DNA of 20,719 bases, taken from positions 2,582-23,300 of IMG/VR virus record IMGVR_UViG_3300030099_007964; one strand, written 5' to 3'. The notes below the pieces were generated by a model. That model searched no databases and was not told the DNA's origin. It saw nothing but the letters and a program-made list of their open reading frames with translations. Positions 2,442 to 20,719 of the stretch are shown here, piece by piece; the stretch's first letter is position 1; each line of letters starts with the position of its first letter. The position numbers and the translations under genes were made by a program. Origin of the DNA: a virus.

Positions 2442-2732
2442 ATGAAGGACTTAGAAGCATATATTAACGAAGCAATTAAAAATATTAGAAGTGATCGTGC
2501 TATTACAACGACTCTCTTGATGGAACTAATGGAGTACATCAAAAAAGATGAAGATAGGAGAGAGTCTGTTGGCACTATTGCTGCTAAATATGTTGAGACA
2601 CTCCAAAGATCAAATGAACAACTTGTAAAAATAAGCGCTCTTCTCCAAAAAAAGGCAGGATCTGAACAGGGATTAACAGATGAGGATAAAAGTGAACTGT
2701 TTGATCTTATAAAGGACTCTAGTAATGGTTGA
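2442..2732 (+). CDS. Small helical hypothetical protein (96 aa)
   Basis: The protein is almost entirely predicted helical and charged: residues 1-37 form one or two amphipathic helices, and 50-75 another with heptad-like spacing (ETLQRSNEQLVKISALLQKK). The tail is acidic. There is no membrane segment, signal peptide or metal site, and I do not recognise a family. It follows a 33-base AT-rich gap after the sigma factor gene and ends eight bases inside the baseplate hub gene, so it is probably co-translated with the hub. No clear Shine-Dalgarno sequence precedes the ATG; the upstream bases are a T-rich run. A small helical protein encoded directly before a hub could be a chaperone or hub-assembly factor, but this is positional inference. 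Confidence 0.72.
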   Translation: MKDLEAYINEAIKNIRSDRAITTTLLMELMEYIKKDEDRRESVGTIAAKYVETLQRSNEQLVKISALLQKKAGSEQGLTDEDKSELFDLIKDSSNG

Positions 2733-4821
2733 CAGAAGTAAAACAAATCATTTTGTTGATGGCTTATTAAATCCATATGTTGACACCAATCGTCAAGTAG
2801 TTGAGTCTGGTGAATTTGGAACCACAGAAAAACTTTATAAAGCTTCTCAAAGAGCAGTATCTGATAATTTAGACACAGGAGAATTCCTGGGTATAGTATT
2901 GAGAGTCGATGGCTCCACTATTATGACCCCATCTAAAAATTCAGCTGTATCAAAATCAAATATTATAACAGAGGGTGCTTTAGAAAATAAAATCCAAGAT
3001 CAAGCAAATTTATTACAACTAAGAATAAGAATCCCAAAACTACATTCAATGTTGCCAATTCCAGCTATGAATCCGTCAAATTTTCAAAACCATCCAGACA
3101 ATGAAATAATTGACATGTATCCTGTTTTTGTAGCCAAAGAAGAGGACATGGATATTCCCTCTCCAGGTGATGTTGTATGGGTAAGGATTACAAATAAAAA
3201 TGACAACAACTCTGGGCTTTACACTGGAGTCTACAAAAAATCAGGATACATTACAGAGTCTGAACACATTAAATCACCAAAAAGCATTTATGATCAAAGC
3301 TGCAAAGGTGTGTTATCTACAAGCAAGCAACACAGCCTCGGTGTGGCTTTCCCTCCCCCGATTGAGGGGGGGACTAGTGCCTTTGTATATAACGATTTTT
3401 CGAAAAACAAAAATTCATTAATAAATGATGAAAACCTAATATCATCAAAAGCAGTTCAAGAGCTGTACAATCCAAAAAAGAAACCGAAGGGTGGTAAGGG
3501 CATATGCATCGGAAAACAAGTAATGGGATATACTTCAGAAGATGCTGGTTCACAAAGTGGTCCAATGATGGTTTCTACGACAGGGGGATATCAAAGTTAT
3601 AAAAATGTACCAACAAAAGTAGAAATATTCACAGCGACACCAATAACCCCTCCAGGATGGAGGCTACCTTCTAATAATGGAAGTGCAAGACCAAGGGGCT
3701 TATTAGAAAATAGAGTTAGAAAGTTTGCATTTGACACATTACCCCCAGATTCTCCCTTGGTGGTCAAACTTCCTGAAGGGGGCAGACCTGTTCATAAATT
3801 ACTCGCAGACAGAGTTAGAGCACTAAACAAGTTTTGGAAAAAAACAGTTTTAGATAATATAAAATCTCAGTCTGAAAGGGAAGAGAAAAAAATAACTGGG
3901 ATATGGAATGCAAAAACTCCAAAAGGGGGTTTGAGAGAGCAACTTTATGACAATAATTATACTCGATATAAATATGAAATGTTGCTAGGTGCACACACGG
4001 GTGTAGATGAAAGTGGTAACAAAGACGCAAGAGCATATTCAACTCTTAGCGCCGCTCTTAGCAGAAAAGCGTTTCAGTCGCCACATGAAACTGGTTTAGC
4101 TATAGATTTTTCAACAAATGGACAATATTCAGGAAATGGAAAAAACCAGTACGATAGGATGAATAGTTGGTCATGGCAATGGCTTGTTAATCATGCGTGG
4201 CTTTTTGGCTTAACCCCATTTTCAAATGAGAGTTGGCACTGGGAACTGTTGCCTACTAGGGAATCTTGGGAAACTGGTGTAGATTATGTTGATATTAATG
4301 ATCCATCGTCAGGAATATGGGTGGGAAAGCTTCCATCTTCGCCAGAAAAACAAGCGGAGTTGTACAAAGAAAATTCATTACTACGAGAAGCTGTTGCAAC
4401 TAATGTTCAAATATATGATACAATACCATATTCAAACATAGGACTAGATTCATTTCCGCTAATTCAAAATGATAGTTTATATATTCTGGATAAATATGCC
4501 GAGCCAATGCATTTTCCATACGCTGTTTTTGTTAGAGAGACTCTTCTTGATAATAGCGAGGATCATGGTGTGACAACTGCTAGTGATAGATGGACATATA
4601 GTAAAGAATATAATATTAGAAAAACAAATAGAAAGAAATTTACAGTAAAAGTTGGTCTTCCAAATCCATATATGTCCAATGGAGAAGAAAAAATAAGCTC
4701 TTTATATACTAAAGAGGTTATAGAAAAGGGAGTTAGTGTTGGAGACACGCTGAAATTCAATATGAGAGAAGAACAAATAAGCAAAGAAATATATTTTGGA
4801 TGGTCTGGTAATAATAAATAA
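2725..4821 (+). CDS. 5-like: gp5-like baseplate hub protein with M15 (VanY-type) peptidoglycan peptidase domain
   Basis: This 698-residue protein combines two modules. The N-terminal part (about 50-178) fits a gp5/VgrG-type OB fold: a GEFLGIVLRVDG strand, LQLRIRIPKLHSMLPIP (97-113), then PSPGDVVWVRI (145-155) and a GLYTGVY strand. The central part (about 355-512) is a peptidase of the M15B/VanY D-Ala-D-Ala carboxypeptidase type. SPHETGLAIDF (452-462) gives zinc ligands H454 and D461, and ESWHW (502-506) gives catalytic E502 and ligand H505. T4 gp5 instead carries a lysozyme domain. The expected role is a tail-tip enzyme that opens the cell wall during DNA injection. The C-terminal 180 residues are not assigned. 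A linker (about 205-290) is rich in Gly, Pro, Ser and Lys. AAAGGA (2711-2716) eight bases upstream supports this ATG. All catalytic residues are present, so activity is likely. Confidence 0.86.
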   Translation: MVDRSKTNHFVDGLLNPYVDTNRQVVESGEFGTTEKLYKASQRAVSDNLDTGEFLGIVLRVDGSTIMTPSKNSAVSKSNIITEGALENKIQDQANLLQLRIRIPKLHSMLPIPAMNPSNFQNHPDNEIIDMYPVFVAKEEDMDIPSPGDVVWVRITNKNDNNSGLYTGVYKKSGYITESEHIKSPKSIYDQSCKGVLSTSKQHSLGVAFPPPIEGGTSAFVYNDFSKNKNSLINDENLISSKAVQELYNPKKKPKGGKGICIGKQVMGYTSEDAGSQSGPMMVSTTGGYQSYKNVPTKVEIFTATPITPPGWRLPSNNGSARPRGLLENRVRKFAFDTLPPDSPLVVKLPEGGRPVHKLLADRVRALNKFWKKTVLDNIKSQSEREEKKITGIWNAKTPKGGLREQLYDNNYTRYKYEMLLGAHTGVDESGNKDARAYSTLSAALSRKAFQSPHETGLAIDFSTNGQYSGNGKNQYDRMNSWSWQWLVNHAWLFGLTPFSNESWHWELLPTRESWETGVDYVDINDPSSGIWVGKLPSSPEKQAELYKENSLLREAVATNVQIYDTIPYSNIGLDSFPLIQNDSLYILDKYAEPMHFPYAVFVRETLLDNSEDHGVTTASDRWTYSKEYNIRKTNRKKFTVKVGLPNPYMSNGEEKISSLYTKEVIEKGVSVGDTLKFNMREEQISKEIYFGWSGNNK
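3353..3372 (+). repeat. GC-rich inverted repeat inside the hub gene
   Basis: CTCCCCC (3353-3359) and GGGGGGG (3366-3372) can pair as a seven-base stem with one U-G wobble around the six-base loop GATTGA. It stands out in AT-rich surroundings. In frame it encodes a PPPIEGG turn in the hub linker (about residues 210-216), so protein constraint alone may explain it. No T-run follows, so it is not an intrinsic terminator. Confidence 0.5.
4813..4820 (+). promoter_or_regulatory. Candidate T4-type late promoter (AATAAATA)
   Basis: AATAAATA matches the NATAAATA late promoter form described for T4-like cyanophages and differs from the T4 TATAAATA octamer by one base. It overlaps the TAA stop of the hub gene and lies 53 bases before the next ATG, leaving room for a start site and leader. 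Perfect TATAAATA octamers occur elsewhere only inside genes, but this copy sits in one of the few intergenic gaps. The site is short and the DNA AT-rich, so chance is a real alternative. Confidence 0.45.
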
Positions 4822-4873: not shown

Positions 4874-5866
4874 ATGACAAGCCATATAAGATCTGAGAAA
4901 AAACAAAAAAGAAATACAACAGCCAAGAATAGGCAAAGACTAAACAATGCTTCATCGGATACTAGATTAAAAAGATCTGGTTTGGGTGGCACAAAACAAG
5001 TAGAAGAAATACCAAACTACGTTCAAGCTGAATGCGAAACAGTGGTAAAGGGGTCAACCAATAGTTGGGTTGTTTTAGGAAGAGACAGACCTGCAACTAG
5101 GCTCTCTGGTGTTGGTGCAGGAATTGATTCTCATTGTTCTATGATAGATTTGTGCGTTGGTCGAGGTGGTAGAGATGTCGTTACCGAGGACGACGAAAGA
5201 CTAATGGAGACAGTTGACCACGATGGAAACCCAGCAACTCCAGAACTAAAGTTCTTTAATAACGATTTTAAGGCTGACGCTGCAAGAATATACATTTCTC
5301 AAAAAACATCTATCGATAAAAATTTTGGTTTAGTTCCTGGCAAAATTGGAAATTATGATGGGCAGTTGGCTAGATCTGCGATTGGTATAAAAGCAGATAA
5401 TATTAGAATGATTGCAAGGCATGGAATAAAATTAGTAACAAGAACGGACGATACTTATTCGACTGGAGGATCAAGTAGTGGAGAAGTTAAAGGCATAAAC
5501 ATAATCGCTGGAAATGATGATTCTGACTTACAGCCAATGGTGAAAGGAAGAAACCTCCGCGCTTTGCTAAGATTAATATGCGAAGATTTAAGAACCACAT
5601 CGTCAGCTGTGCATGATTTGGTTGTAGCTCAAATGGCTTTTAATAATATTTTGGCTGCTCATGTACATGTGGACCCAGTAAGTGGTGTAACTGGACCCTC
5701 AGTTGAGGTAGGTGTAGCAGCTAGCCTTAAGGCTTCGAGAGAAGCGATTCAAATCATACCCTCCCAAATAAATGAAATAATCAATAGGGTGGTAGAAGAC
5801 ATTGAATTCCTATTACCAGCAGGAAGTAGTCGCTCAATTTTAAGCAAACATAATCATGTTAATTAA
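4874..5866 (+). CDS. Putative virion structural (baseplate-associated) protein, 330 aa
   Basis: I do not recognise a named family. The first 45 residues are very basic and probably disordered (Lys/Arg/Asn-rich). The middle (about 130-215) is beta-rich, with the segment ARSAIGIKADNIRMIARHGI (about 165-185) followed by KLVTRTD. That style of short repeating strand resembles beta-helical spike regions and phage structural proteins that follow gp5-like hubs. Residues 225-325 are mostly helical, ending in RSILSKHNHVN. There is no signal peptide or membrane segment. It follows the hub after a 52-base gap with a candidate late promoter and precedes the giant gene by 21 bases. AAGG at 4858-4861 is a distant ribosome site (12-base spacing). 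Position suggests a hub- or spike-proximal component expressed late; the exact role is unknown. Confidence 0.7.
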   Translation: MTSHIRSEKKQKRNTTAKNRQRLNNASSDTRLKRSGLGGTKQVEEIPNYVQAECETVVKGSTNSWVVLGRDRPATRLSGVGAGIDSHCSMIDLCVGRGGRDVVTEDDERLMETVDHDGNPATPELKFFNNDFKADAARIYISQKTSIDKNFGLVPGKIGNYDGQLARSAIGIKADNIRMIARHGIKLVTRTDDTYSTGGSSSGEVKGINIIAGNDDSDLQPMVKGRNLRALLRLICEDLRTTSSAVHDLVVAQMAFNNILAAHVHVDPVSGVTGPSVEVGVAASLKASREAIQIIPSQINEIINRVVEDIEFLLPAGSSRSILSKHNHVN

Positions 5867-5887: not shown

Positions 5888-8800
5888 ATGAGTCTTTATC
5901 AGCACGTCAAAGTTAATAAAAAGATAAAAATTAAATCAAGTGCATTCTTTGAAATGCCGTTGAATACTGCTAATTCTTCTCATTACAATGTGAACATGGA
6001 CAGTGTGACGCAAATTGGTCCCGATGGAAACCCAGCTGTGATATCTGTTCCAGTAACCTTCGAGAGTCTTTACAATGGGTACGACGAATTTACAGGTTAT
6101 CAAATATTAAGCAAGCTAGTAACGGATTCAATACTTCCCCGAGCGTTAAGGTATGGATTACTTTATAACTATTTCGGCTACCCTGTGGCAAACGTCTCTC
6201 CTTATGACGACAACACAAATGATTATAAATCAGATCAAAGCGCTAAGTATTCTGTTTCAGACGGCGACAAAACAAGTCTTTCGCAATATGTGGATCAAGT
6301 TTACCCTCAAGGTAATTTAGCATACATTGTTCCATTTGACTATTCTGGAGAATATGAGCCCATATTTTATCAAATAAGCTATCTCGAATACGCTATAGAG
6401 AATCACAATGAAGGATACGAGGCTGACGAGGGTATTTCAAGTGTTGGATCTTATTATGATTTAGCTAAAAAAGCAAATAAAATTAGTGACTCTTACTACA
6501 TTGACCATGTTTTTTCTTATTTGAGAGGAAATAGAATGTATGGAAGCGACTGGTTTTCGTGTAAGGTTGATCCTGTTTCTTTGCATCTTTGCTCAACCCA
6601 ACTTAATATGTTAAATAAAACCAAGTTTGTTCTTTCAACGGACGATTCCGATGGGAGTTTAGATTATACATTTTTAAGGGCGGGCACTAGTGATGACGGA
6701 GTTGATTACGGACTTGCGTATCAAGACCCTCCAGATCCCAACGATCCAAAAATAACATGGAACAAAGATCAATTGGGTCTTTGTCATTTTTGGATGATAA
6801 ACAACAGGGCGCACTTTGAAAATTTGCAGAGTCTTTATTCACTTGAAGGAGGCAGTGCCGATATAACAAACGACGAATTATACGTGGCATATTTCCCAGG
6901 CATTTTTGGTCTTACAGAATATGCAGGAACGGCTAATATAGCTGCAATTTCTGTAGCTAAACAATATTATGGAATATCATCTAATAGATTATGGGAAAGT
7001 GTAACAAACCCTCTGCACAAAACTTGGGCTAAAGCATTTCTACCAGGGTCGATCACGCCCTCCGCGGGTTCTTACGAAGGGGATCTTGTTTATTTCTCCT
7101 CAGTCGAAGGAACGCTGCAAGAATACTATAAATATGGTTCACCAACTGAGCCATATGCTACAGAATCAGGTGTTGATTTATGGCAAATTGACGGAGAATA
7201 TTCTTTTGTAAATCCTGGTAGCGACATGAGAAAGATCGTTGGAAAATATGCCAATACTAAATGGTACTGGCAATATGACTTAAATCCCGATGAGTTTGGT
7301 TTGATCAATGGATCTGTAAAAGATCCAGATTTGGAACTTTCTGGCATACCTTTGTGGCAAAAATTCAGGTACTCAAATATCGCTTCAGCTTTTTGCTTAA
7401 CTCCAGGTCCTAAAGTAAAAAATCAAAAAAGTTATGACTTTTATCTAACAAATCCAAATGAAACTTTGAATGCTATTGTTCCTCAAATTATTGATTATGT
7501 TGCAAAAGTAGTTCCAAAAAGTTTGAATAATAGTGCAAATGATTCTATAGACGGAATCAAAAAGTTTAGAATTTCAAATAAAATTAAAGAAAATTTGTCT
7601 CCTAACGAACAAAAAATGGAGCTAATTTCAAATTATAAATTAGGAATCACTGCAAACCATGAAAACGATCTTGAAATGATTGGGTATGAGTATGTTGAAC
7701 AACAAGGTCTTGTAGGAGCTACAGATTTCGGAGTCGTTGGTTGGCCAAGCTACGGAACATATTCTGGAATAGTGCCATCAAAAAACAAAGTAAACTATGC
7801 TCTTTTAGACAGCCCATGGTACTCATATGGTGAGATCCAGAATGATAAGCCAGACAATTTTATGATTGTCCCCGCGGACCCAATGTCTTTGGCACACATG
7901 GTGAACGTAATGCCAAAACAGAAAAATCAAGCTGGGGGATATTATGCAGACGCCGCACAGTTGTATTTTAGTAAAAAAAACTACACAGATGGAATCGGTG
8001 AGTCCACTTCCCTTCCAGAACGCGCTTGGAAACAATTAGAAATTTCTAAAGTAGTATCGGACCTTTTTGCAGCACATAAATTTGGAAGAAAACCATACGG
8101 ATTTTATCAAAATAATTTTCCAGACCCTAATGGGTTCACAGGCCCATCCCCAAATACCCCAGATGCGGAATTTGCATATGGATTTACAACACCTGCTGGT
8201 GGATATAAGGGAGAAGATCCAGATTCTTTCCAAGGAGTAGGGTTTGGTAGCTACAGCGAAATTACAGAAATGTCTAATTTGATATTTCCTGTTTGGGAAT
8301 ATGATCAAGAGGCGATTGATGAAATTAACTGGCAACCTCTGATAAAAAGTTTTGAGGATGAAGAAAAATATGCTGATCAAATTTCTGATTTTCCAGCATT
8401 TAAAAACAGAATTAATTACGGCTTACCAGACTGGGTTAAGAAAATATCAATATACCCATCTATTGAAAGACATGTCACATCCGTTGGATTATCTTTCTAC
8501 TACGGTCCCTTACAGCGTAAAAGCTTTGACCAAGGTGGCACTATAGAATTTTCCCCACCTGGTCCTTATTACGCACTCAACAAAATGACACCCGAAGCAG
8601 CAAGCTATAATATCGCCGCGCTGGATCAACACATTCTTACATATCAAAATTCTGATTTTACTGGATTTATTGGTGGCGGACTTCCATGGGTAAAATATAA
8701 CTACAATTATGATCCTAAATCCAACACTTATCGAGAAATAATTACCGTTAGGTATGTTGTGGAGATGGAAATTGATGAGAGTCAGTTAATCGCTGATTTA

Positions 8801-11800
8801 GTTGGATATGGTGCCGTTAGTTTATCTGGTACACCAGAGGGATACTTGAAGCAAGGCTTTGATGTTGTAGACTTGTTGGTTAAATCAAACGGAAATATTG
8901 AAAATGAATTATTAAAAGAAGAATACGATAACATAATTAATTCAGCAGAAGCGCTTGGTTTAGATCCCTCTCAGTTTCCTAGTCTTTTCCCAGAAGAATT
9001 TGTCGAAGATTTTAATCTTGAGGAAAAAGAAATTGATCTAATAAACGACGGGCTAGATCCAAATGCATGGATAAACCTCCCGAATGATCAGAGCACAATA
9101 GCTTTAAAAAGAACCCCAGGACCCGATGCAGAAAATATTGGATATGTGGATAAATATACATTTGTAAAAGTCCTTAAAGAATGGGTAAACGGAAAAGGAG
9201 AGTTTCATAAGGTAAAAATAACAGATTCAGACTCTCCCTACAATGGAAGTGTCGGGTTCCTGCCTCCTGAAGTGATTTCTCCAAGTCCAAAATCAGTTGA
9301 AAACAAGATATTTTTTGAGGATAAGTTTTCGCAGGAAGGCTTAAAATTAACTGAAACTGAAGTTCAGTATATGTCAGAAGCTGCTTTAGCCTTAAATGCA
9401 CCAAAATGGTTTGAACTTGATGATCCATATTATTACAAAGGGGACGGAGAATATTGGATAAATGTTAAATTACCCGCTGCATCGTTCAGTGAGGTAGGGT
9501 GTATTGTTGATGAGCAGGACCTAGAAAACAAAAAACAGTTTGCAAAAGATTTAGCTTTGAGAGAAATTTTAGACTTTCTTAATAAATCTTATACAGATGA
9601 GGATGTCACTAAGCTTTTAGAAACATACCTTGTTGTTAGAATAGACGAGGGCGTTGATAATTATTATTTAAATTTAAGACCTGGAGAACCAGTACAGTTC
9701 TTGGTAAAAATTGGAGCAATTTATGTTAAAGCTTTTAAATCCAAAGCGATGGTGTTGGAAGAATTAAAAGAAAGTTCAACCTATGTTATTGATTTGGACA
9801 CGAGGTTTTATCAACAGCATGTAACTCAGGCTTTATTTTCTTTAAATAAAATATATTTAGATATTTTCACATCTCAGTTTTCTGTGAAGGGGTTTAATGT
9901 GCTCAAAGAGGCTAAGAGAATATCTGTAATACCAGTTGAATTAAACAGGCTGATTGCTTTAAATGGCTACGAGATAGGAAACAAAAATCTTAGAAACAGA
10001 ATTACTATAGGTTTTGATTCTGATTTTAAAGTTGTTTTTGTTTCTTATAAAGAACAAAACGCAGATGAAAAACTTTTAGAAATTGGTTTAAATAAATTAA
10101 TTAATAGAGAGCCATTCGTGTACCAGAATACAATGTCGCTATTCTATCACCATAGGCTCTTAAAAAATCCAACAATTTCTTGGAAATCTGTGGTTGAAAA
10201 TTATTTAATTAATCCCAAAGCACAGATAGTGCCAAAAGACCCAGGGGACTTAAAAATACCATCCTCTGTTTGTTCACCCCCGTCTTTTGTATTTCCAGAC
10301 TGGCAAGATATTCTCCAGGGAATAGCCCAACAACTAGATACTGCACTTGATCTCGATCCAAGATTTGACGCTGGGTCTTTTCAGTTTAGCTTGCTTCAAC
10401 TTTTCCCCCCATGCCCAAAACCTCCAAGCGGAAAAGGACCTGCCCTCTTTCAAATGCTGTTGGACGTTGGCAATGAAACAGCCTTTGTCGAAGGGCGAGG
10501 AAAATTAAATTTTGGAGAAGATGGCGTTTCCTTTGATGGAAACGGCGAAGAGTTATTAGCACAATTTAATTCGATGCTTGAAGGATCAAAAGAGTGGGCA
10601 ACAGATAATTTCTTCGGATCTGAATCTTTAAAAAATCTTAGAACTAGAATTTTTTCTCTCGATGACCTTCAAGAATTAGTTCTGGATTATGTTGATCCAG
10701 CTAGCCTCTATAGTAGAATATGTAAGTGTTTCCTTGATATTGTAGGATTTGACGAAATACAAGCACCAAATTTTGAAATAAGTGCAGAGGGCGGTTCTGC
10801 TGGTATGAGAGTAAGACCTGGGCAAGCTATGGTTAACTCCATAACAGATGATGAATCAGGTCCTAAACCTTCTGCTTTTGAATTAGAAGCCAAAGGACCA
10901 AAAGCGGAGACAAATTTTTTCGATCCAAACAAAAAAGTATCAATCAATACAGATGACTTGCTTTGCTCATTTTGCTTTAATATACCAAGTGTATTCTTAA
11001 GATTGCCAACAACAAATATATTAGATGAGCTTATTAGAGCACTAAAAGCTCTCCTTGAATTTGCCTTAGCACAGCTTTTGCTCTCTCTAATCGCCGCGGC
11101 ACTAGATATTTTAACAACATGTCCCGATATTCAATGCCCAACGGGTGGAGAAAATGTCAGAGATTATGGTAGAAATAATCTTAATGATATTTTTGACAAT
11201 TCTGATGTTGACATAGTGGATACATATGAGGCTTGTGGGTTGTTTGTAGATGATATTACTATAGACAGAAGCATGATACTAGGCTTTATGAACGCTGTGT
11301 CATCTAAATTAAGCACGATTGAGATTTTGGGTCTTTTGGATGGAACACCAGATGCAATAACTTTAAATGTAATTCAAGGAGTGCTTAACACTGAAGAATT
11401 CTCTCCCCTTAAGCCTCAAATGGACACTAAAGCAAAAATTGAAGACTTTTTTGCTTGCGCGGGGCAACAACTTCCACCAAATGCCCTAGCAGATCTTGAA
11501 GATGAACTAGTTGAAATTTATCAAGATATTGATTTTTGTAAAAATTTATATGATGATGCATCAGCAAAGTTAGCTGATAAGTGTGGGGATGTCATTAACG
11601 CTCAAGAAATATTGGATAAAATAGAAAATTTAGATCTTGAGAATTATAAAAATATAGCAAACATTTTTAGACAAACAGACGACCTATCCACGCAACTTCC
11701 ACCTATGTTTTCAGACGGAAGTGGAGTCCAGAGCATTATGTCTCAACTTACAAACAAATCCCCGTCTGTTAATTATGCTATAGATAAAACAGTTGAAACC

Positions 11801-14800
11801 GCCGTGGTTTCAGTTGCATCGATTCTGACAAAAGAGAGTGTTGAGTTCAATACTGTTTCAAAGGTGGGCGGAGAATATAGAAATGTTATGCTCTTTCCAG
11901 ATGATGGACTTGAAGATGTTCTTAGGGAACCTATAGGATTGATGGGGGCAAGATTGTTGTTCATGTTGGGCGGCAATAGAGAAAATCGCTTAGTAAGAAA
12001 TATTGATATCAAGTTTAAGGATTTGCAAGCATATGTAACTGTCGATGAAGATGAGCAAAGTATGAGAATTACTACACTCGCTTCAAATGTTGTAGAATCA
12101 CCAGAGTCAGGCAATGAGTTGATGACAGAGGAAGAGCTTGAAGCATTAAAAATTTACCAAGAGCAAACTGGAGCTTCTAGCATTATTGGTGAGCAAATGG
12201 GCGAAGGAGCAAATAACCAAGTTATACTGACCTTTAATCCACCCAGTAAGGAAGACGGACAAGCGATATACACCAATAACTATACATTTGGATTTATTGT
12301 CTCGCATGGTGCAATGCCAAAAGACAAGCTAGAGGAAACAATACAGTCTAAAAATAATGTTTTACTGTCTGAATTTAACTCATACCCTGAAAGGTTTTCG
12401 GCGGTTGTTTTAAATGGTAAAGAAGAAGAAATTCCAGTAAATGTGAAGCAACTATTAGATCAATATCCTTTGGATGGATCTTCGGAAGTGTCTGAGCATT
12501 CTCAATTTTTTGGCAACTTGATAACAGGTGGAATATATAGCGGAGGTGTTCCTTATAATTTTGTTGAAAATTTCGACCCCGAAGCTCCCGCTGAACAGCT
12601 TACACTGCAATCATTGAATTTGCCAGAAGATTTTTATTCTTTGATTCAAAAAGATATATATTGGTCTATATCGACTTTTATTATTAATTCACTTGCAAAA
12701 AAAGTTTCTGAAAACGGTCTTTTGGGAAAATATGATGATAATCCTTTTAACAAAATTGATGGCAGTGTTGAGTCTATATTGGGTCTTGGGGGTGTTCTTC
12801 CTGTTGTCCTTGCGATGGCAATCGCTTCTCCAGGATTTTTATTTATAGCGTTTAAAAATTTAACTAGAAAGCTATACAGAAGAGAACTTCAAAATTTAGA
12901 TCTTGCACCCGCACCATCTAACCAAGGTGGTAGTACCATCCCCATCGGACTAATCAACTTTGCCGCTGTATCTGATTCTATAAAAATGAATTATGACATG
13001 TCTAAGTTTAACGACCCAACATCAGAGGAGTTGCAACCAACAAACCTCGCTTTTGCTGAAGGTTGGATAGGTGCTTTGATCCAATTGCATGCATCTGAAT
13101 TTTTCTGCAAAGGAATTCACACAACATCAGTGTTCCCAATCGAATTATTCAGAGACGAAGAAACAATCATTGAATATATTTTCAGCGACTTTGAATTTTG
13201 GCTTAATCTTCCAAACAACAATGCGTTTACTTTTGCTTATTACGATTTAGTTAATTCTATAATTAGATCAAAATCAGAGTGGACTCCAGACGATGAAGCT
13301 TCAGATTTCGGTTTTGAAATACATGGCGAAATATTTGATTTAAAAATGGGAAAACCAATTAGAGTTGATAGTTGGCAAGATGCGACAAAAATGCTTATAC
13401 GCAGATATTATATGGATTCACTATCTTTTATTAAAAATAGAGTCAACCAATTGCAGCTTGTTGGAAATGAACAACCAAAAGATTTAAACCCAATATCTAT
13501 ATTGACATATCCTCAAGTCTTAGAAATAGCTGATCCTCCTTATGGTATTTTAGTTCCAAACACTGAATATGCTTTTAACTTTGATGAATTGCACCTGGAT
13601 TATAAATATGATGAACTAGATTCCTTCTTAAAATCAGGTATTGGTATATATCATGACTCCCCTACCATACCAATAATGCCACAATCATTGTTTCAGCCCG
13701 AACGTGTATGGCAATTTTGGAATGGAAAATTCTTTTTTCAGACGTATTTTAAGTTGACAGAACTAAAGCCCAATGGCGAAAAATACAAAAAAACTGTAAA
13801 TAAGTTGATCGAAAAATGCGGATTTTCAGAGGACGGAGCGATGGATGTTCTTAATACTTTTGCTCAAAGATCTTTATCTTTTAAGGGGCACGTATCAAAG
13901 AGAAATTTACAGTTCATAGTGAATGAGTTAGCTAACGGAGATGCTTTTATGGGTTATCTTAAGCCAGATGATAAAGAATTGTTTAATGATATTGGATTGA
14001 TAGGAGAATCAGGGTTTAATTTATTAGAAGAAGTTCAGGAAGATTCTGAATATCATGAGATTATTGCTGATATTAAATTTCATCTTTCAGTGGAAGATTT
14101 TTTTGAGTCTGTAAATATGGGAGTAAGAATGTGTTTTGGCTTTGCAGACACAGACGACCCCGAAGTGTCTTTACCCATACAATTTCTTGGTATTAAACCC
14201 AATTACATAACACAAAAAATGAAAAACGTGATTAATGATCTTTTAAACGACTATGGTGATTCGGTTGAGGATGACTTAGACGGACAGTATGGCTCTCTTT
14301 TACAGCAAGCCTCATTAACAAAGTCTCTTAGAGTTGTAGAGGATGTGGGGTTTACTAACGGAGGTTTTCAAGAAAAGTATAGCTATATTTTCCCAATTAT
14401 CTCAAATGAGAGAACAATCGTTGGAGAACCATCTCCCGCCACCCCACACTATGGAGTAAACTCTGAACTCGATAATTACTTCAAAATCCAATTGGATGCC
14501 TTGAGCAACCCAGAACATTATCAATATTATGACTATAAAATTTTTATGGACAATTTAATGGCAAATCCTAGTTTTTCGTCAAAAATAGCTACCATGGTTT
14601 CTGAAATAATTGGAAGCACCCCGTACGAGAGTCTATTTAAATATAGCATCCCAGTTTCTAGAATTATGTCCATGGTATCTATTTATAATGCACAAGAAGT
14701 TAGCCTTTCTACTGCTACAAACGTTAACTTTATTGGCACAAAAGCTGTTTTAAAAGACATATTGCTGGGAATCTATAAATCAAGAGGAAAAGATTCTTAC

Positions 14801-14884
14801 AAAAATGAATCAGAAAGCATAAAGAAAAGTGGAGGTTCATCAGGTACAGCGGTATCTTCTTACAAAAGTTTTAAAGGACTATAA
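5888..14884 (+). CDS. Giant unassigned virion-type protein, 2998 aa
   Basis: One uninterrupted frame encodes 2998 residues; I cannot assign it to a family. The first ~1000 residues are rich in Tyr, Asn, Gly and Pro and look beta-rich, as in tail fibre or baseplate proteins. Residues 1068-1130 resemble a bacterial SH3 domain (ALKRTPGPD, a HKVKI strand, SVGFLPPEV end). Residues 1462-1899 hold 12 of the protein's 20 cysteines, including CKC (1612-1614), C1693xxC1696 and C1745/C1750, flanking a hydrophobic helix (about 1717-1743). Residues 2299-2322 are a membrane-like stretch bracketed by charged residues. The last 30 residues are Ser/Lys/Gly-rich and probably flexible. AAGGA (5871-5875) or GAGAGA (5880-5885) could serve as ribosome site. 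The position between hub and gp25/gp6 suggests a baseplate or tail component. A tape measure-like or host-contact role is possible. The open frame argues against decay. Confidence 0.75.
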   Translation: MSLYQHVKVNKKIKIKSSAFFEMPLNTANSSHYNVNMDSVTQIGPDGNPAVISVPVTFESLYNGYDEFTGYQILSKLVTDSILPRALRYGLLYNYFGYPVANVSPYDDNTNDYKSDQSAKYSVSDGDKTSLSQYVDQVYPQGNLAYIVPFDYSGEYEPIFYQISYLEYAIENHNEGYEADEGISSVGSYYDLAKKANKISDSYYIDHVFSYLRGNRMYGSDWFSCKVDPVSLHLCSTQLNMLNKTKFVLSTDDSDGSLDYTFLRAGTSDDGVDYGLAYQDPPDPNDPKITWNKDQLGLCHFWMINNRAHFENLQSLYSLEGGSADITNDELYVAYFPGIFGLTEYAGTANIAAISVAKQYYGISSNRLWESVTNPLHKTWAKAFLPGSITPSAGSYEGDLVYFSSVEGTLQEYYKYGSPTEPYATESGVDLWQIDGEYSFVNPGSDMRKIVGKYANTKWYWQYDLNPDEFGLINGSVKDPDLELSGIPLWQKFRYSNIASAFCLTPGPKVKNQKSYDFYLTNPNETLNAIVPQIIDYVAKVVPKSLNNSANDSIDGIKKFRISNKIKENLSPNEQKMELISNYKLGITANHENDLEMIGYEYVEQQGLVGATDFGVVGWPSYGTYSGIVPSKNKVNYALLDSPWYSYGEIQNDKPDNFMIVPADPMSLAHMVNVMPKQKNQAGGYYADAAQLYFSKKNYTDGIGESTSLPERAWKQLEISKVVSDLFAAHKFGRKPYGFYQNNFPDPNGFTGPSPNTPDAEFAYGFTTPAGGYKGEDPDSFQGVGFGSYSEITEMSNLIFPVWEYDQEAIDEINWQPLIKSFEDEEKYADQISDFPAFKNRINYGLPDWVKKISIYPSIERHVTSVGLSFYYGPLQRKSFDQGGTIEFSPPGPYYALNKMTPEAASYNIAALDQHILTYQNSDFTGFIGGGLPWVKYNYNYDPKSNTYREIITVRYVVEMEIDESQLIADLVGYGAVSLSGTPEGYLKQGFDVVDLLVKSNGNIENELLKEEYDNIINSAEALGLDPSQFPSLFPEEFVEDFNLEEKEIDLINDGLDPNAWINLPNDQSTIALKRTPGPDAENIGYVDKYTFVKVLKEWVNGKGEFHKVKITDSDSPYNGSVGFLPPEVISPSPKSVENKIFFEDKFSQEGLKLTETEVQYMSEAALALNAPKWFELDDPYYYKGDGEYWINVKLPAASFSEVGCIVDEQDLENKKQFAKDLALREILDFLNKSYTDEDVTKLLETYLVVRIDEGVDNYYLNLRPGEPVQFLVKIGAIYVKAFKSKAMVLEELKESSTYVIDLDTRFYQQHVTQALFSLNKIYLDIFTSQFSVKGFNVLKEAKRISVIPVELNRLIALNGYEIGNKNLRNRITIGFDSDFKVVFVSYKEQNADEKLLEIGLNKLINREPFVYQNTMSLFYHHRLLKNPTISWKSVVENYLINPKAQIVPKDPGDLKIPSSVCSPPSFVFPDWQDILQGIAQQLDTALDLDPRFDAGSFQFSLLQLFPPCPKPPSGKGPALFQMLLDVGNETAFVEGRGKLNFGEDGVSFDGNGEELLAQFNSMLEGSKEWATDNFFGSESLKNLRTRIFSLDDLQELVLDYVDPASLYSRICKCFLDIVGFDEIQAPNFEISAEGGSAGMRVRPGQAMVNSITDDESGPKPSAFELEAKGPKAETNFFDPNKKVSINTDDLLCSFCFNIPSVFLRLPTTNILDELIRALKALLEFALAQLLLSLIAAALDILTTCPDIQCPTGGENVRDYGRNNLNDIFDNSDVDIVDTYEACGLFVDDITIDRSMILGFMNAVSSKLSTIEILGLLDGTPDAITLNVIQGVLNTEEFSPLKPQMDTKAKIEDFFACAGQQLPPNALADLEDELVEIYQDIDFCKNLYDDASAKLADKCGDVINAQEILDKIENLDLENYKNIANIFRQTDDLSTQLPPMFSDGSGVQSIMSQLTNKSPSVNYAIDKTVETAVVSVASILTKESVEFNTVSKVGGEYRNVMLFPDDGLEDVLREPIGLMGARLLFMLGGNRENRLVRNIDIKFKDLQAYVTVDEDEQSMRITTLASNVVESPESGNELMTEEELEALKIYQEQTGASSIIGEQMGEGANNQVILTFNPPSKEDGQAIYTNNYTFGFIVSHGAMPKDKLEETIQSKNNVLLSEFNSYPERFSAVVLNGKEEEIPVNVKQLLDQYPLDGSSEVSEHSQFFGNLITGGIYSGGVPYNFVENFDPEAPAEQLTLQSLNLPEDFYSLIQKDIYWSISTFIINSLAKKVSENGLLGKYDDNPFNKIDGSVESILGLGGVLPVVLAMAIASPGFLFIAFKNLTRKLYRRELQNLDLAPAPSNQGGSTIPIGLINFAAVSDSIKMNYDMSKFNDPTSEELQPTNLAFAEGWIGALIQLHASEFFCKGIHTTSVFPIELFRDEETIIEYIFSDFEFWLNLPNNNAFTFAYYDLVNSIIRSKSEWTPDDEASDFGFEIHGEIFDLKMGKPIRVDSWQDATKMLIRRYYMDSLSFIKNRVNQLQLVGNEQPKDLNPISILTYPQVLEIADPPYGILVPNTEYAFNFDELHLDYKYDELDSFLKSGIGIYHDSPTIPIMPQSLFQPERVWQFWNGKFFFQTYFKLTELKPNGEKYKKTVNKLIEKCGFSEDGAMDVLNTFAQRSLSFKGHVSKRNLQFIVNELANGDAFMGYLKPDDKELFNDIGLIGESGFNLLEEVQEDSEYHEIIADIKFHLSVEDFFESVNMGVRMCFGFADTDDPEVSLPIQFLGIKPNYITQKMKNVINDLLNDYGDSVEDDLDGQYGSLLQQASLTKSLRVVEDVGFTNGGFQEKYSYIFPIISNERTIVGEPSPATPHYGVNSELDNYFKIQLDALSNPEHYQYYDYKIFMDNLMANPSFSSKIATMVSEIIGSTPYESLFKYSIPVSRIMSMVSIYNAQEVSLSTATNVNFIGTKAVLKDILLGIYKSRGKDSYKNESESIKKSGGSSGTAVSSYKSFKGL

Positions 14885-14887
14885 AAA

Positions 14888-15250
14888 ATGATTTCTTATT
14901 CACCAACCATACCGTTAAATCTAGACCCTGTGCTGGGCTATTCGATGAACACGGATTTAGTGCAAGTTGCAAAGCAAAATTTTAGAATGTTGATCCTAAC
15001 CGCACCAGGAGAAAGAATGATGATACCCGACTTTGGTGTCGGCTTAAGAAATTTTTTGTTTGAACAAATGGGTCCAATGACAAAAAATAAAATTAAAGAA
15101 AGAATAAATCAACAGGTTAATAGGTATATGCCATATATTGAAATTTTGAACGTTTCTTTTCAAGATACTGATATAGACAGAAACCAAGTTAACATATCTA
15201 TTTTTTATGCAATACCGTCCCTCGGAGTCGCAGAAGTGCTTAATGTTTAA
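14888..15250 (+). CDS. 25: gp25-like baseplate wedge protein
   Basis: The 120-residue protein is the gp25/TssE type found in contractile tails and type VI secretion systems. The diagnostic block is TAPGERMMIPDFGVGLRNFLFE (38-59), with the E42-R43 pair standing where T4 gp25 and TssE have the conserved Glu-Pro-Arg region. It is followed by a helix that starts FEQMGPMT and strands (EILNVSFQD, NISIFYAI) typical of the fold. The known role is a central wedge subunit that helps start sheath assembly at the baseplate. Length matches the family (T4 gp25 is 132 residues). AAAGGA (14873-14878) lies nine bases before the ATG and three bases separate it from the giant gene stop, so the two are probably co-transcribed. 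It is followed by a 73-base gap and the gp6-like gene, its physical partner in the wedge. Confidence 0.92.
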   Translation: MISYSPTIPLNLDPVLGYSMNTDLVQVAKQNFRMLILTAPGERMMIPDFGVGLRNFLFEQMGPMTKNKIKERINQQVNRYMPYIEILNVSFQDTDIDRNQVNISIFYAIPSLGVAEVLNV

Positions 15251-15323: not shown

Positions 15324-17129
15324 TTGCCTCAAGATAAAAAAAAGATAGTCCCCATAAATTATACGAATAGAGACTTTAATTCAATAAAAGAATCTCTAGT
15401 TAGCTATGCCAAAAAATATTACCCAGAAAGATATAAAGATTTTAGCGAGGCTGGCTTTGGTTCTTTGCTAATTGATACGGTTGCATATGTAGGTGACATA
15501 ATGTCTTTCTACTTAGATTATCAAACAAATGAGTCTTTTCTGCAAACTTCAATAGAATATGAAAATGTTTTAAAACATGCAAATCAGCTAGGATACAAAT
15601 TTCAAGGCATCGCGACATCATTCGGAGAAATTGAACTTTATGTAACAATACCAGCCACACCAAATGGCATAGGACCCGACATGTCTTATGCACCAATCAT
15701 AGGCAAGGGAACAACGTTTACCTCCACCTCTGGAGTGCCATTTGCTTTATTAGACGATGTAGTTTTTTCTGAAGCTTCTGAAATTATTGTTGCCTCTGTA
15801 TCTCAAGATGCAGCCTCTATACCCACACATTACGCTCTAAAAGCAAAGGGAAACGTAATATCTGGTATGCTAAAAACACAATCTATTACAATGGGCGATT
15901 ATGAAAGGTTCCCAAGAGTAAAAATAAATGATTTTGATGTGGTAGAAATTATTTCTGTTATGGATTCACAGGGAAACCAATATTATGAAGTGGATAATTT
16001 AAGTCAAGATATAATTTATAAATCTGTAGCTACCAAAAATGAAGATCAAAATACGACACCTTTTATTCTAAAACCTTTTCCAGTTCCAAGAAGATTTGTA
16101 ACTATGAACGATTATCCTTTTATGTATTTGCAATTTGGGTATGGGCAAGAAAACGATTTAACAACAGAGGAGGTATTAGACTCTAGCAAAGTTTCTTTAA
16201 ATCTTCATGGAAAAAATTACATATCCGAACCGTCATTCGACCCTACAAATTTAATAAAAACTGATAAATTAGGAATTTCTCCCAGCAATACAGCGTTGAC
16301 AATTCTTTATAGAAAAAATGGTAGAGAAAACGTCAATATTGCGTCTAATACATTAACAAACATATCTAATCCGATAGTGAATTTTGATAATATTCAAAAT
16401 TTAATTTTTAGTAGAGTTACGGAAGTTATTGAAAGTTTGGAAGTAGTGAACAGAGAACCAATTGTAGGTGATGTTTCTTTGCCAACAATTGAGGAAATAA
16501 AATATAGAACTTATGGGATGATCTCTTCTCAAAGTAGGGCGGTTACTAGAGAAGACTATTTGTCCTTGATATATAATATGCCAGCAAAGTTTGGCTCCGT
16601 CAAAAGGGCAACCATCGCACAAGATATTAATTCATTTAAAAGAAATCTGAACATATATACTGTTTCAGAGGACTCAGCAGGCAATTTAATTAATTCAAAT
16701 ATGACTTTAAAGAATAATCTTAAAACTTGGATTACAAAAAATAAGATGATCAATGATACAATTGATATTTTAGATGCAAAAATAGTCAATGTCGGAATTG
16801 AGTTTGAAATTATGGCTGATGATTTTGCTAATAAGTTTGAAGTATTAAATGCGGCAATTTTGGAATTATCAGCGCATGTTTCATCAGCTAAGTACAATAT
16901 TGGAGAATCTATAAGGGTTAGTGATTTATATAGAAAGATGAAAAATATTGATGGATTATTGGACGTAATAAATGTAAAAATTGTTAAAAAAACTGGTATA
17001 ATATATTCATCCGTAGATTTTGATGTCGCTGAAAATACATCTATGGACGGCAGACTTGTTAGTGCTCCGATTGATCACATTTTTGAATTTAAATATCCAA
17101 ATTTAGATATTGTAGGAAAAGTTAAATAA
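15324..17129 (+). CDS. 6: gp6-like (baseplate J type) baseplate wedge protein
   Basis: The 601-residue protein matches T4 gp6/baseplate J proteins. The N-terminus has the INYTNRDFNSIKESLV motif (about 11-26), then GFGSLLIDTVAYVGDIMSFYLDY with NESFL, the usual region in which adjacent gp6 copies pair. Later, a YRTYGMISSQSRAVTREDYL block (about 394-413) and KFGSVKRATIAQD are hallmark gp6 sequences. The C-terminal third fits the dimerising core. The known role is to form the iris-like ring that links wedges and triggers sheath contraction. T4 gp6 is 660 residues, so this is close to full length. The start is TTG with AAGGAG upstream. The stop overlaps the next start by one base (TAATG at 17127-17131). 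No frame disruption is seen. Confidence 0.93.
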   Translation: MPQDKKKIVPINYTNRDFNSIKESLVSYAKKYYPERYKDFSEAGFGSLLIDTVAYVGDIMSFYLDYQTNESFLQTSIEYENVLKHANQLGYKFQGIATSFGEIELYVTIPATPNGIGPDMSYAPIIGKGTTFTSTSGVPFALLDDVVFSEASEIIVASVSQDAASIPTHYALKAKGNVISGMLKTQSITMGDYERFPRVKINDFDVVEIISVMDSQGNQYYEVDNLSQDIIYKSVATKNEDQNTTPFILKPFPVPRRFVTMNDYPFMYLQFGYGQENDLTTEEVLDSSKVSLNLHGKNYISEPSFDPTNLIKTDKLGISPSNTALTILYRKNGRENVNIASNTLTNISNPIVNFDNIQNLIFSRVTEVIESLEVVNREPIVGDVSLPTIEEIKYRTYGMISSQSRAVTREDYLSLIYNMPAKFGSVKRATIAQDINSFKRNLNIYTVSEDSAGNLINSNMTLKNNLKTWITKNKMINDTIDILDAKIVNVGIEFEIMADDFANKFEVLNAAILELSAHVSSAKYNIGESIRVSDLYRKMKNIDGLLDVINVKIVKKTGIIYSSVDFDVAENTSMDGRLVSAPIDHIFEFKYPNLDIVGKVK

Positions 17130-19117
17130 TGGCTATAAAAAGATATATTGCAACAGCGGACAATACAATTACAAATGCTTACCAAATGGACCTGTCTACA
17201 AGGGGCACTGGTTCAAATATGGGAGCAGCAGATAGCTTGGAGGCGTTTTACATTTTTGGTCAAGCAGTAAATGGCACTGGGATTCATAGCCAGACATCTG
17301 AAAAGTCAAGAATTCTTGTTCAATTCGATGTTGACCAAATGAACAAGGACCGCACAAACGGTTTAATTCCAGTAAGTGGAAATGTTGCTTGGCAACTTAA
17401 CCTTTATAACGCCCCCCATGCTTTTACCCTGCCTAAAGATTATAAAATGGTAATTAAAGTTTGTTCTGGCTCTTGGCAAGAAGGGACTGGTCTTGATATG
17501 GACAACTACACAGATCAGACCTACGAAGGCACAGGATCCAACTGGGTTAGAAAAGGTGCTGCTGGAGATGGTCATTCCACATGGCTTACTGAAGGCGGCG
17601 ACTTTGCAGAGAGCAGCCTATCAGTTGTGTTTACTGGGTCGTTTACTGACGGAACAGAAGATTTATCTGTTGATATTAGCGACATTGTTGAAGATTGGAT
17701 GACTGGCGGCACACAAGCCACTTCTCTTGGCACAGTGGCAGGAACATCTACAAGTGCAAATCTTGATGACTTAACCTTTACATTGATTGACTCTCAGGGG
17801 ACTACAGTTGTATTTAGGTTTGACAAGGATGTTACGACAGCAGGAGAAGTTATAGGATTATCAGGACTAGCATCTACTTCGGCTATAACAAATCAAATAA
17901 TAGATTCAATAAATAACGTTTCTAAACTAAGAATAACTTCAAAACTAGGTGATATCCCAACTGAATTTATATTGACTATGGATGACATAGGTTTGGCAGG
18001 AAATACAATCGGTGGTCTAGGTAATTTTGAAGATTCGGGTTCTTTAGACTCTGGAAATCAAAGAATAACAGCTGCTGCTAATAATTTCACTCAAGGAACA
18101 GGAATACCAAACTATGGCTTAGGCATCTTTCTATCTTCCAGTTACGAAACTGGATCTCATTCATACTATACAAAGAAGTTCTTTTCTAGATCAAGTGAAT
18201 ACTTCTTTCTTAGACCAAATCTAGAAGCTAGGTGGGACTCCACAACAAAAGACGAGTCTGGTAATGTATACTTAAGTAGCTCTTTGGCTGATGGAGATGA
18301 CAACTTAAATACTCTATATTATTATAATTTTATAAGAGGTCAATTAAAAGATATACCTGAATATAGTCTTCATGGCGGAACTCAATCGGGAACTATAAAG
18401 TTGTATTTATTTTCAGCTTCATCAGATAGCTCTATGCCTGTGGGAATGAGAGCAGAGGATGCTTTTTTATTGCCAAAGGGCGGAGGAGTTGCATCAGACG
18501 GAGACAGAGTTGTTGTTGGAGGAAGACACAAAACATTAGGACCAGGAGTCTATACGGCGTCATTTGCAATCAACAATGACAGTGTTGATTCTTTTTATCC
18601 TGTTTGGGCATTGAGATCCCAAGGCGCAAGTTCTGACACCCAATTCCATACAGCTTCTTTGGTCGGCATCCAAGACTTTTTCAGCAAAGGGTCTCCTAAT
18701 AGCAATCCAGACTCAAGCTATGTAACAACTATCGATAACTTAAAGCCATCATATTCTAGAGAAGAAGAAGCTAGATTTAGATTGTTTATTAGATCAAAGA
18801 ATTGGAATCCAAACAGTTATACAAAAATGCAATCAAATATTCAAAGCGAAGTTATAGAAGATGCATATTTCAGCCTCCATAGAATTGTGGATGATTATGA
18901 AGTAATTGCTTACGGAACTGGCTCTGCATTATCTCCTCAACAGACAGGCTCTGTAGGGTCATATACAAGATTATCCTACGATATTTCTGGGAATTATTTT
19001 GACTTAGATATGAGTTTATTACAGGCAGGCTATGAATATGGATTAAAATTTGCTTATTACTCAAATGGGTCTTACAAAGAGCAGAGTGAAATATTCAAAT
19101 TTAAGGTAGAGGAATAA
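17129..19117 (+). CDS. Virion structural protein with DNRLRE-like domain split by an inserted beta domain, 662 aa
   Basis: The gene begins by TAATG overlap with the gp6-like gene, where a second wedge or adapter protein is expected. Residues 60-194 resemble the DNRLRE carbohydrate-binding-like fold (SRILVQFDV, GSWQEGTGLDMDNYTD at 114-129, GSNWV, and the VDISDIVEDWMTGG end at 181-194). The fold seems to resume at IPNYGLGIFLSSSYETGS (326-343). Between them (about 195-322) lies a second unit, with TFTLIDSQGTTVVFRFD (216-232), a helix (SAITNQIIDSINN) and an LAGNT turn, a pattern seen in phage and adhesin repeat domains. The C-terminal 300 residues are beta-rich and unassigned. No signal peptide is present, as expected for an intracellularly assembled virion part. 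T4 gp7 occupies the same position after gp6, but I see no sequence reason to equate them. Confidence 0.72.
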   Translation: MAIKRYIATADNTITNAYQMDLSTRGTGSNMGAADSLEAFYIFGQAVNGTGIHSQTSEKSRILVQFDVDQMNKDRTNGLIPVSGNVAWQLNLYNAPHAFTLPKDYKMVIKVCSGSWQEGTGLDMDNYTDQTYEGTGSNWVRKGAAGDGHSTWLTEGGDFAESSLSVVFTGSFTDGTEDLSVDISDIVEDWMTGGTQATSLGTVAGTSTSANLDDLTFTLIDSQGTTVVFRFDKDVTTAGEVIGLSGLASTSAITNQIIDSINNVSKLRITSKLGDIPTEFILTMDDIGLAGNTIGGLGNFEDSGSLDSGNQRITAAANNFTQGTGIPNYGLGIFLSSSYETGSHSYYTKKFFSRSSEYFFLRPNLEARWDSTTKDESGNVYLSSSLADGDDNLNTLYYYNFIRGQLKDIPEYSLHGGTQSGTIKLYLFSASSDSSMPVGMRAEDAFLLPKGGGVASDGDRVVVGGRHKTLGPGVYTASFAINNDSVDSFYPVWALRSQGASSDTQFHTASLVGIQDFFSKGSPNSNPDSSYVTTIDNLKPSYSREEEARFRLFIRSKNWNPNSYTKMQSNIQSEVIEDAYFSLHRIVDDYEVIAYGTGSALSPQQTGSVGSYTRLSYDISGNYFDLDMSLLQAGYEYGLKFAYYSNGSYKEQSEIFKFKVEE

Positions 19118-20719
19118 TGGCAGACGATTATTTACAGGACATTTTAGATAAATTCGGGGTTAACCTCGATGTTGACGGGGGAAAACAGACTCAAGCAGGT
19201 GCTATTGACGAATTCCTTGGTGGTTTCGGGTATAATCTTGGAGATGCTTCGTCTCCAAAGCCAACAGCACCTTTAACTCTCAATGATATGACAAGGATTG
19301 TAGAATCCCCAGGGTATATCAAAGAGTATATAAAGGATAGAAAAGCATTTTTCCCAACAGTTGATTTTTCTGATCCTGCATCATTTGCAAAATTTGGTCT
19401 TGCAGAAGAATACTATAAAAAATCTATTGAAAATATATACAAAACCTACCCTTACGATGGATCTTTAAAGGAAAAAATTCAATGGCATAATGAGGCGTCA
19501 TACATAGACAATTATATATTTGACGCTGAGTACCCAAGAACAAACGGGTATGTAAATATTGGTTTTCCATGGGGTTCTGTCTCTTCTGTGAAAGGAGATT
19601 ATAAATTATCCTCAACACCACAATATATTTCTTTTAAAGGTGGACCCCACGCTGCTTCAATACCAGCGTATAGTGGGCAATCTTATACTAAAGAAATTAC
19701 CTACAAGGAAGAGGAGCAAAAAGCTAACATTTATAATGCCACTAGTAGTCAAATACAAAATATGACTATCAACGGAGCTGCGGGTAATACAGTTGAATTT
19801 TGGTTTAAGTGCCAAACAGACCCTTCCAAAGCCGAGGTGAGTGATCAACCATCTAAAAACTTCGCCTATTTTGATCTTTGGAATGAGCAAACAATAGGAT
19901 CTGTTGTCCCTGGGTCTGAATATGGAAGGTTTCTGATCGAAACCAAGCTCAACTCATCTAATCAATATCAAGAATTATGCATGTTTAACGTCACTTACCG
20001 CTCTGGTAGTAGTGGAGTAGATTTTGCAAAGTTAGGTGGCGAGGGAACCGTCGCAACAGCAGGCCACGTCAAAGACAAGTTCGGAATAGACCTTTCAGAA
20101 TGGAACCATTATGCTTTTTCTGTAAAAAATAGTACAGATTCCAATCAGCTTGTGATAAAACTGTACATTAATGGAAACTTAGTAGATACAGTGCACACAG
20201 GATCTCAGGTAGGCGAAGTAAAAGAGGGACCCTTCAACGCAAATCTTGGCGCTTATAGAACCAAAGTGCATGCTGGGGGGGCGGCAATAACAGATGGTTT
20301 CGGAAGTATATCTGGATCCTTCGACGAGTTTAGATTCTGGACAAACCAAAGAACATCTGAAGAGATTAAGATATTTCACCGAAGCCATGTTGGGGGTGGA
20401 ACGAATACAGACTATGGCAATTTCATGTCAAAGTACAGTGGCTCCGTAAACCCAGTTGATTTAGGGGTATATTATAAGTTTAATGAAGGTATTGTTGGCA
20501 ATTCTGATTCAGATAAGGTTGTGTTGGATTATTCTGGTCGAGTGACAAATGGATTGTTTAACAATTATGCTTCAACTTGCAGAAGCACTAGTTCTGCGAT
20601 TGTAGAATCCAGCGCTTCAGCACATGAATTTAAAGATCCAATTATTTATAGTTTTCACCCAACTGTAGTGTCTTATAAAGATAAGTCCACCCAAAAAGGC
20701 AAAGAATATGATGATAGGA
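19117..20719 (+). CDS. LamG/concanavalin A-like domain virion protein, 3' end truncated by the window
   Basis: An open frame runs from ATG at 19117, which overlaps the previous stop (TAATG), to the right edge without a stop, giving 534 complete codons. Possible ribosome sites are AAGG (19103-19106) and AGAGGA (19108-19113). The N-terminus (1-60) is acidic and Gly-rich, followed by a helical segment (about 60-135). Residues 225-415 look like a LamG/concanavalin A-like jelly roll: NTVEFWFKCQ at the start, SEWNHYAFSV in the middle (about 327-336), LYINGNLVDT, and the diagnostic end SFDEFRFWTNQRTSEEIKIF (about 401-420). LamG-like domains in phage structural proteins usually bind sugars or host surface polymers. 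The position after gp6 and the DNRLRE-like gene suggests a baseplate or fibre-linked component with receptor or glycan contact. The C-terminal part is not visible. Confidence 0.8.
   Translation, partial: MADDYLQDILDKFGVNLDVDGGKQTQAGAIDEFLGGFGYNLGDASSPKPTAPLTLNDMTRIVESPGYIKEYIKDRKAFFPTVDFSDPASFAKFGLAEEYYKKSIENIYKTYPYDGSLKEKIQWHNEASYIDNYIFDAEYPRTNGYVNIGFPWGSVSSVKGDYKLSSTPQYISFKGGPHAASIPAYSGQSYTKEITYKEEEQKANIYNATSSQIQNMTINGAAGNTVEFWFKCQTDPSKAEVSDQPSKNFAYFDLWNEQTIGSVVPGSEYGRFLIETKLNSSNQYQELCMFNVTYRSGSSGVDFAKLGGEGTVATAGHVKDKFGIDLSEWNHYAFSVKNSTDSNQLVIKLYINGNLVDTVHTGSQVGEVKEGPFNANLGAYRTKVHAGGAAITDGFGSISGSFDEFRFWTNQRTSEEIKIFHRSHVGGGTNTDYGNFMSKYSGSVNPVDLGVYYKFNEGIVGNSDSDKVVLDYSGRVTNGLFNNYASTCRSTSSAIVESSASAHEFKDPIIYSFHPTVVSYKDKSTQKGKEYDDR

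Follow-up and report, generated by a model that had tools for sequence, protein, structure and literature searches.

A family of giant proteins encoded beside the baseplate wedge genes gp25 and gp6 in uncultured T4-like phages

A giant gene beside the baseplate wedge genes gp25 and gp6 is known from the marine T4-like cyanophage syn9, whose gp101 (phrog_701; an 18.2-kb gene encoding about 6,000 amino acids) lies downstream of gp6. The isolated phages closest to the present virus by gp6 are Flavobacterium phage immuto and Microcystis phage Mel-JY01 (32-33% identity over the full length), which have a comparable baseplate module with a small protein of 139-190 amino acids before gp25. The DNA studied here (the window) is a stretch of 20,719 nucleotides from a virus record of 37,144 bases. 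Like syn9 it carries a giant gene next to gp25 and gp6, but on the other side, before gp25, where immuto and Mel-JY01 have the small protein.

The giant frame and its neighbors

Gene order around the giant, in window coordinates, is as follows.

2725..4821, + strand: spike/hub-type protein with weak M15/VanY-like peptidase similarity at its C-terminus
4874..5866, + strand: p330, the conserved partner directly upstream of the giant, recurring in relatives' loci
5888..14884, + strand: giant protein, 2998 amino acids (intact frame, full-length homologues, conserved synteny)
14888..15250, + strand: gp25 baseplate wedge (Pfam GPW_gp25 1.2e-13, PHROG 1.5e-23)
15324..17129, + strand: gp6 baseplate wedge (PHROG 2.2e-19; 33% identity to immuto gp6 over the full length)

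The giant is read from an ATG through 2998 codons without an internal stop and fills 43% of the window, as the initial annotation of this DNA had described it. That annotation recognized no family along the protein, and neither Pfam nor PHROGs yields a whole-length match; tblastn returned zero matches in 50,697 phage records, and the giant as a lone query found nothing in viral contigs and nothing significant in the PDB. Its partner p330 is likewise without a match in the phage records. An assembly or frame artefact, which the same annotation had named as a possible undoing, is virtually inconceivable: full-length homologues occupy the same slot in eight independent contigs, which is beyond chance, the frame is free of stops, and nothing was found in favor of an artefact. 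The gene is real.

The product of 2725..4821 is probably a spike/OB-fold protein. Its weak M15/VanY-like C-terminus is replaced in one relative (L032) by an M23-type peptidase, and the spike seems to swap its wall hydrolases between relatives. A second giant open reading frame (ORF) of 3416 amino acids begins at 19117, after gp6 and a gene for a 662-residue protein, and runs past the window's end (19117-20719 and on; L006 4554-14804); it has Laminin_G_3-type similarity near its start, and its place is comparable to that of a cyanophage giant "putative fiber" gene. At L005 1-2600, ORFs resembling sulfotransferases, glycosyltransferases, and adenylylsulfate kinases (translations read by eye) precede the window genes.

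Relatives and conserved gene order

Used alone, gp6 retrieved nothing from viral contigs; an alignment of it with the three nearest relatives among the phage records retrieved 80 contigs, which fall into two groups by gene order. The distant, immuto-type group (about 34% gp6 identity) has small genes upstream of gp25, whereas the close group (37-50%) has a giant ORF there. The giants of the close group are too diverged for BLAST, and profile comparison resolved three collinear segments, X, Y, and Z. Hidden Markov models built with the window left out still detect the window giant (X 3.4e-22, Y 7e-30, Z 2.4e-13), although these values are somewhat favorable because models that contained it had been used to collect the other members; none of 200 shuffled sequences, nor the reversed sequence, was among the matches listed. 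A check free of that bias came from a second set of 80 loci, fetched by p330 rather than gp6 and repeating a few of the first. In these loci and five from genome contigs, the X, Y, and Z models match 70, 74, and 66 ORFs, respectively; these ORFs encode the giant that follows p330, whole or as split halves.

Full-length homologues of 2645-3307 amino acids occur at eight loci (L118-L125), 25-43% identical over the N-terminal part and 34-46% over the remainder, and the family core is encoded at more than 100 further loci of uncultured phage contigs, near-duplicates (e.g., L024/L025 and L144/L146) included. The order p330-giant-gp25-gp6 is complete in 80 of 116 loci; nearly all of the others run into a contig or locus end, or have a split giant. 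Among members encoded complete in one ORF, the shortest has 1291 and the longest 3307 amino acids (median 2217); the largest of all, of about 4690 (contig G003), was read from two overlapping pieces. Three giant genes occupy the baseplate region of that contig (43849-57927 and 76521-83444; about 4690, more than 3955, and 2308 amino acids). At L037 954-2339, a 462-residue ORF without detectable similarity to the giant lies between an upstream ORF and gp25.

Where the core is present it is found once: matches to the core1 profile are confined to a single locus per genome in 11 of 11, and the profile recovers all 11 of these positive controls. Core profiles had no match in LR756508 or in three complete genomes, those of immuto, Mel-JY01, and syn9. 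Scanning genome contigs added just five gp6 loci, all of them distant; three of these were searched with the core profiles, without a giant turning up. No relative was recognized among the cultured phages examined, and the literature searched held no description of the family. Since the window giant carries X, Y, and Z in order between p330 and gp25, it belongs to a previously unnamed family of giants in uncultured T4-like phages. Everywhere in the clade this gene comes before gp25, though its size varies, and this conserved position supports the early view of it as a very large baseplate-module gene.

The giant is encoded by two adjacent genes in about five lineages (L015 and its relatives, L043/L156, L134, L151, and L194), with differing break points. 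A ribosome-binding-type sequence precedes the second start at L015, L043/L156, and L007, so these splits look like real gene boundaries; at L194 the halves overlap, which could reflect a frameshift. That the giant occurs split speaks for domains able to work as separate chains. The initial annotation would have been undermined by homologues divided into ordinary genes, and division is indeed seen, but in a minority of lineages and into pieces of the same unnamed family rather than recognized baseplate genes.

Architecture of the protein

The nine-member subfamily that includes the window giant aligns with six other subfamilies from about residue 1065 to the end or nearly so (hhalign probability 98.6-100). 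Because these others align only from there on, we treat residues 1057-2998 as the core and residues 1-1056 as an add-on. The core runs in the order SH3b, X domain, helical Y domain, and C-terminal half, the last of which evolves fast.

5888..9055, + strand: N-terminal extension, residues 1-1056, seen only in the nine-member window subfamily
9056..9295, + strand: SH3b-like domain, residues 1057-1136, head of the core (AlphaFold [AF2] strands, Foldseek, PDB profile)
9395..10285, + strand: X domain, residues 1170-1466, alpha/beta, no known fold (profile comparison, AF2)
10832..11839, + strand: Y domain, residues 1649-1984, helical, the most widely conserved segment (74 model matches)
11015..11125, + strand: long hydrophobic helix, residues 1710-1746 (AF2 helix; hydropathy against background)
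11879..14881, + strand: C-terminal half of the core, residues 1998-2998, alpha/beta, no PDB match (alignment, AF2, Foldseek)
14522..14881, + strand: Z domain, first half only, residues 2879-2998 (leave-window-out model)

AF2 models of the two core halves reached a mean pLDDT of 76 and pTM values of 0.77 and 0.79, and in Foldseek searches with both the only solved structures matched were bacterial SH3b domains. Structure and sequence both identify residues 1057-1136 as such a domain (Foldseek probability 1.00, TMt 0.73; profile against PDB SH3b 5.6e-4), which shares the fold and a weak sequence profile with 2krs, 2kq8, and the phage endolysin 4krt. Pfam SH3_3 stays below its cut-off (E 0.12 in the window, 2.3e-4 in L123). 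This likeness covers 80 of 2998 residues. The domain was found in 47 ORFs of the family; roughly half of the family is without a detectable copy, so it is not the essential function. Beyond SH3b, the core1 model has significant matches in BFVD to unnamed large proteins only; four of these (A0A516MAR9, A0A1B1IUZ9, A0A516M7H3, and A0A1B1IUR6) match a large part of core1 (E 5e-18 to 6e-7) at just 12-13% identity and probably belong to the same family. The Y helix is hydrophobic in many relatives (median of the best 19-residue hydropathy 1.6, against a background median of 0.29).

Within the window subfamily, identity is 25-43% in the N-terminal extension, compared with 44-56% in p330, 43-51% in gp25, and 40-55% in core1, and such faster divergence is as may be expected of an exposed part. 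The extension is low in helix-forming residues, a composition consistent with the beta-rich N-terminus proposed earlier. One member (L126, 1649 amino acids) is almost without it.

Possible roles and comparison with known systems

We consider it moderately likely, with location judged from synteny, that the giant is a clade-defining structural protein at the interface of spike and wedge whose SH3b domain and N-terminal part face the cell envelope. Incorporated into the virion, a core of about 1,900 residues (SH3b-X-Y-C-terminal half) would sit between the central spike or hub and the gp25-gp6 wedge and stay in the particle as a scaffold, while its SH3b head, together with the variable N-terminal extension, would reach out to the envelope as a skirt or arm in contact with the wall or surface. 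The position between the spike set and the inner wedge genes, the SH3b head, and the variable N-terminus favor this reading. The M15- or M23-type wall hydrolase similarity of the neighboring spike genes also counts for it, and one other family member has LysM and endolysin/transglycosylase-type matches; a regular-expression search for that member gave nothing. Against it, SH3b domains can be purely structural, roughly half of the family has no detectable one, and the conserved hydrophobic helix could point to membrane insertion. A bolder version, rather doubtful, is that the whole uncultured clade has rebuilt its baseplate around one giant of several domains and new fold, which joins spike, wedge, and envelope, takes over the tasks of several T4 wedge and peripheral proteins, and is freely enlarged or split between lineages.

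An unlikely alternative is a protein packed in or near the hub and ejected with the DNA to build a periplasmic channel, with the hydrophobic Y helix and the relatives' hydrophobic C-terminal segments entering membranes. The conservation of the helix, the LysM and transglycosylase matches in one relative, and the hydrophobic, Gly/Pro-rich C-terminus of several relatives would fit, but the gene lies among wedge genes rather than head or connector genes, AF2 places the helix inside a helical domain rather than standing alone, and the C-terminal half of Z is commonly missing, in the window as well. Equally improbable is a receptor-binding adhesin or fiber of the baseplate with the first 1056 residues as its binding module. 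The lineage specificity, paucity of helix formers, and fastest divergence of that part are in keeping with it, as is a total size spanning about 1290 to 4690 amino acids; yet nearly 2,000 conserved residues exceed what a fiber anchor needs, members such as L126 nearly lack the extension, and the laminin-G-like second giant downstream of gp6 is a better fiber candidate.

A fusion of the ordinary T4 wedge and hub genes gp53, gp7, and gp27, of the kind that the initial annotation had entertained, is very unlikely. The two-gene members, some with a ribosome-binding-type sequence, are what it would lead one to expect, but PHROGs, Pfam, PDB profiles, and Foldseek of the core models (residues 1057 onward) show no similarity to gp7, gp27, or gp29, and Pfam shows none to gp53 (PF11246), for which a search of 11 genomes, one with no responding control, also gave nothing; without such similarity a fusion of known wedge genes is unsupported. 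Scarcely credible is a tape measure of an unusually long tail: size, the hydrophobic helix, and length variation between relatives recall one, but the core of the giant mixes alpha and beta structure instead of forming a long coiled coil, and six large giant-carrying contigs encode a separate helix-rich tape-measure-type protein (about 740-1055 amino acids) after the sheath, tube, and hub genes, away from the giant, an arrangement shared by the annotated phage immuto. At G001 60301-65135 the hub gene is followed by two tape-measure-like helical proteins side by side (737 and 875 amino acids); the other genomes have one.

Comparison of the giants by hhalign with the proteins that stand before gp25 in the immuto-type clade, helical ones of about 370 residues and others of 110-220 residues, revealed no homology, and no similarity was seen to syn9 gp94 or gp101 in a comparison covering roughly the first two thirds of gp101. 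The giant belongs to phrog_701 by neither sequence nor position. A 4- to 14-kb gene whose core fold has no name, which keeps its place between the spike and wedge genes in more than 100 environmental phage contigs and is absent from the phage records examined, makes p330-giant-gp25 a marker for the clade and a target for work on structure and host contact. The giant's nearest known counterpart is the virion protein of similar kind beside gp6 in T4-like cyanophages, unrelated in sequence, and the family suggests a way of building the baseplate that has not been described for T4, P2, or cyanophages.
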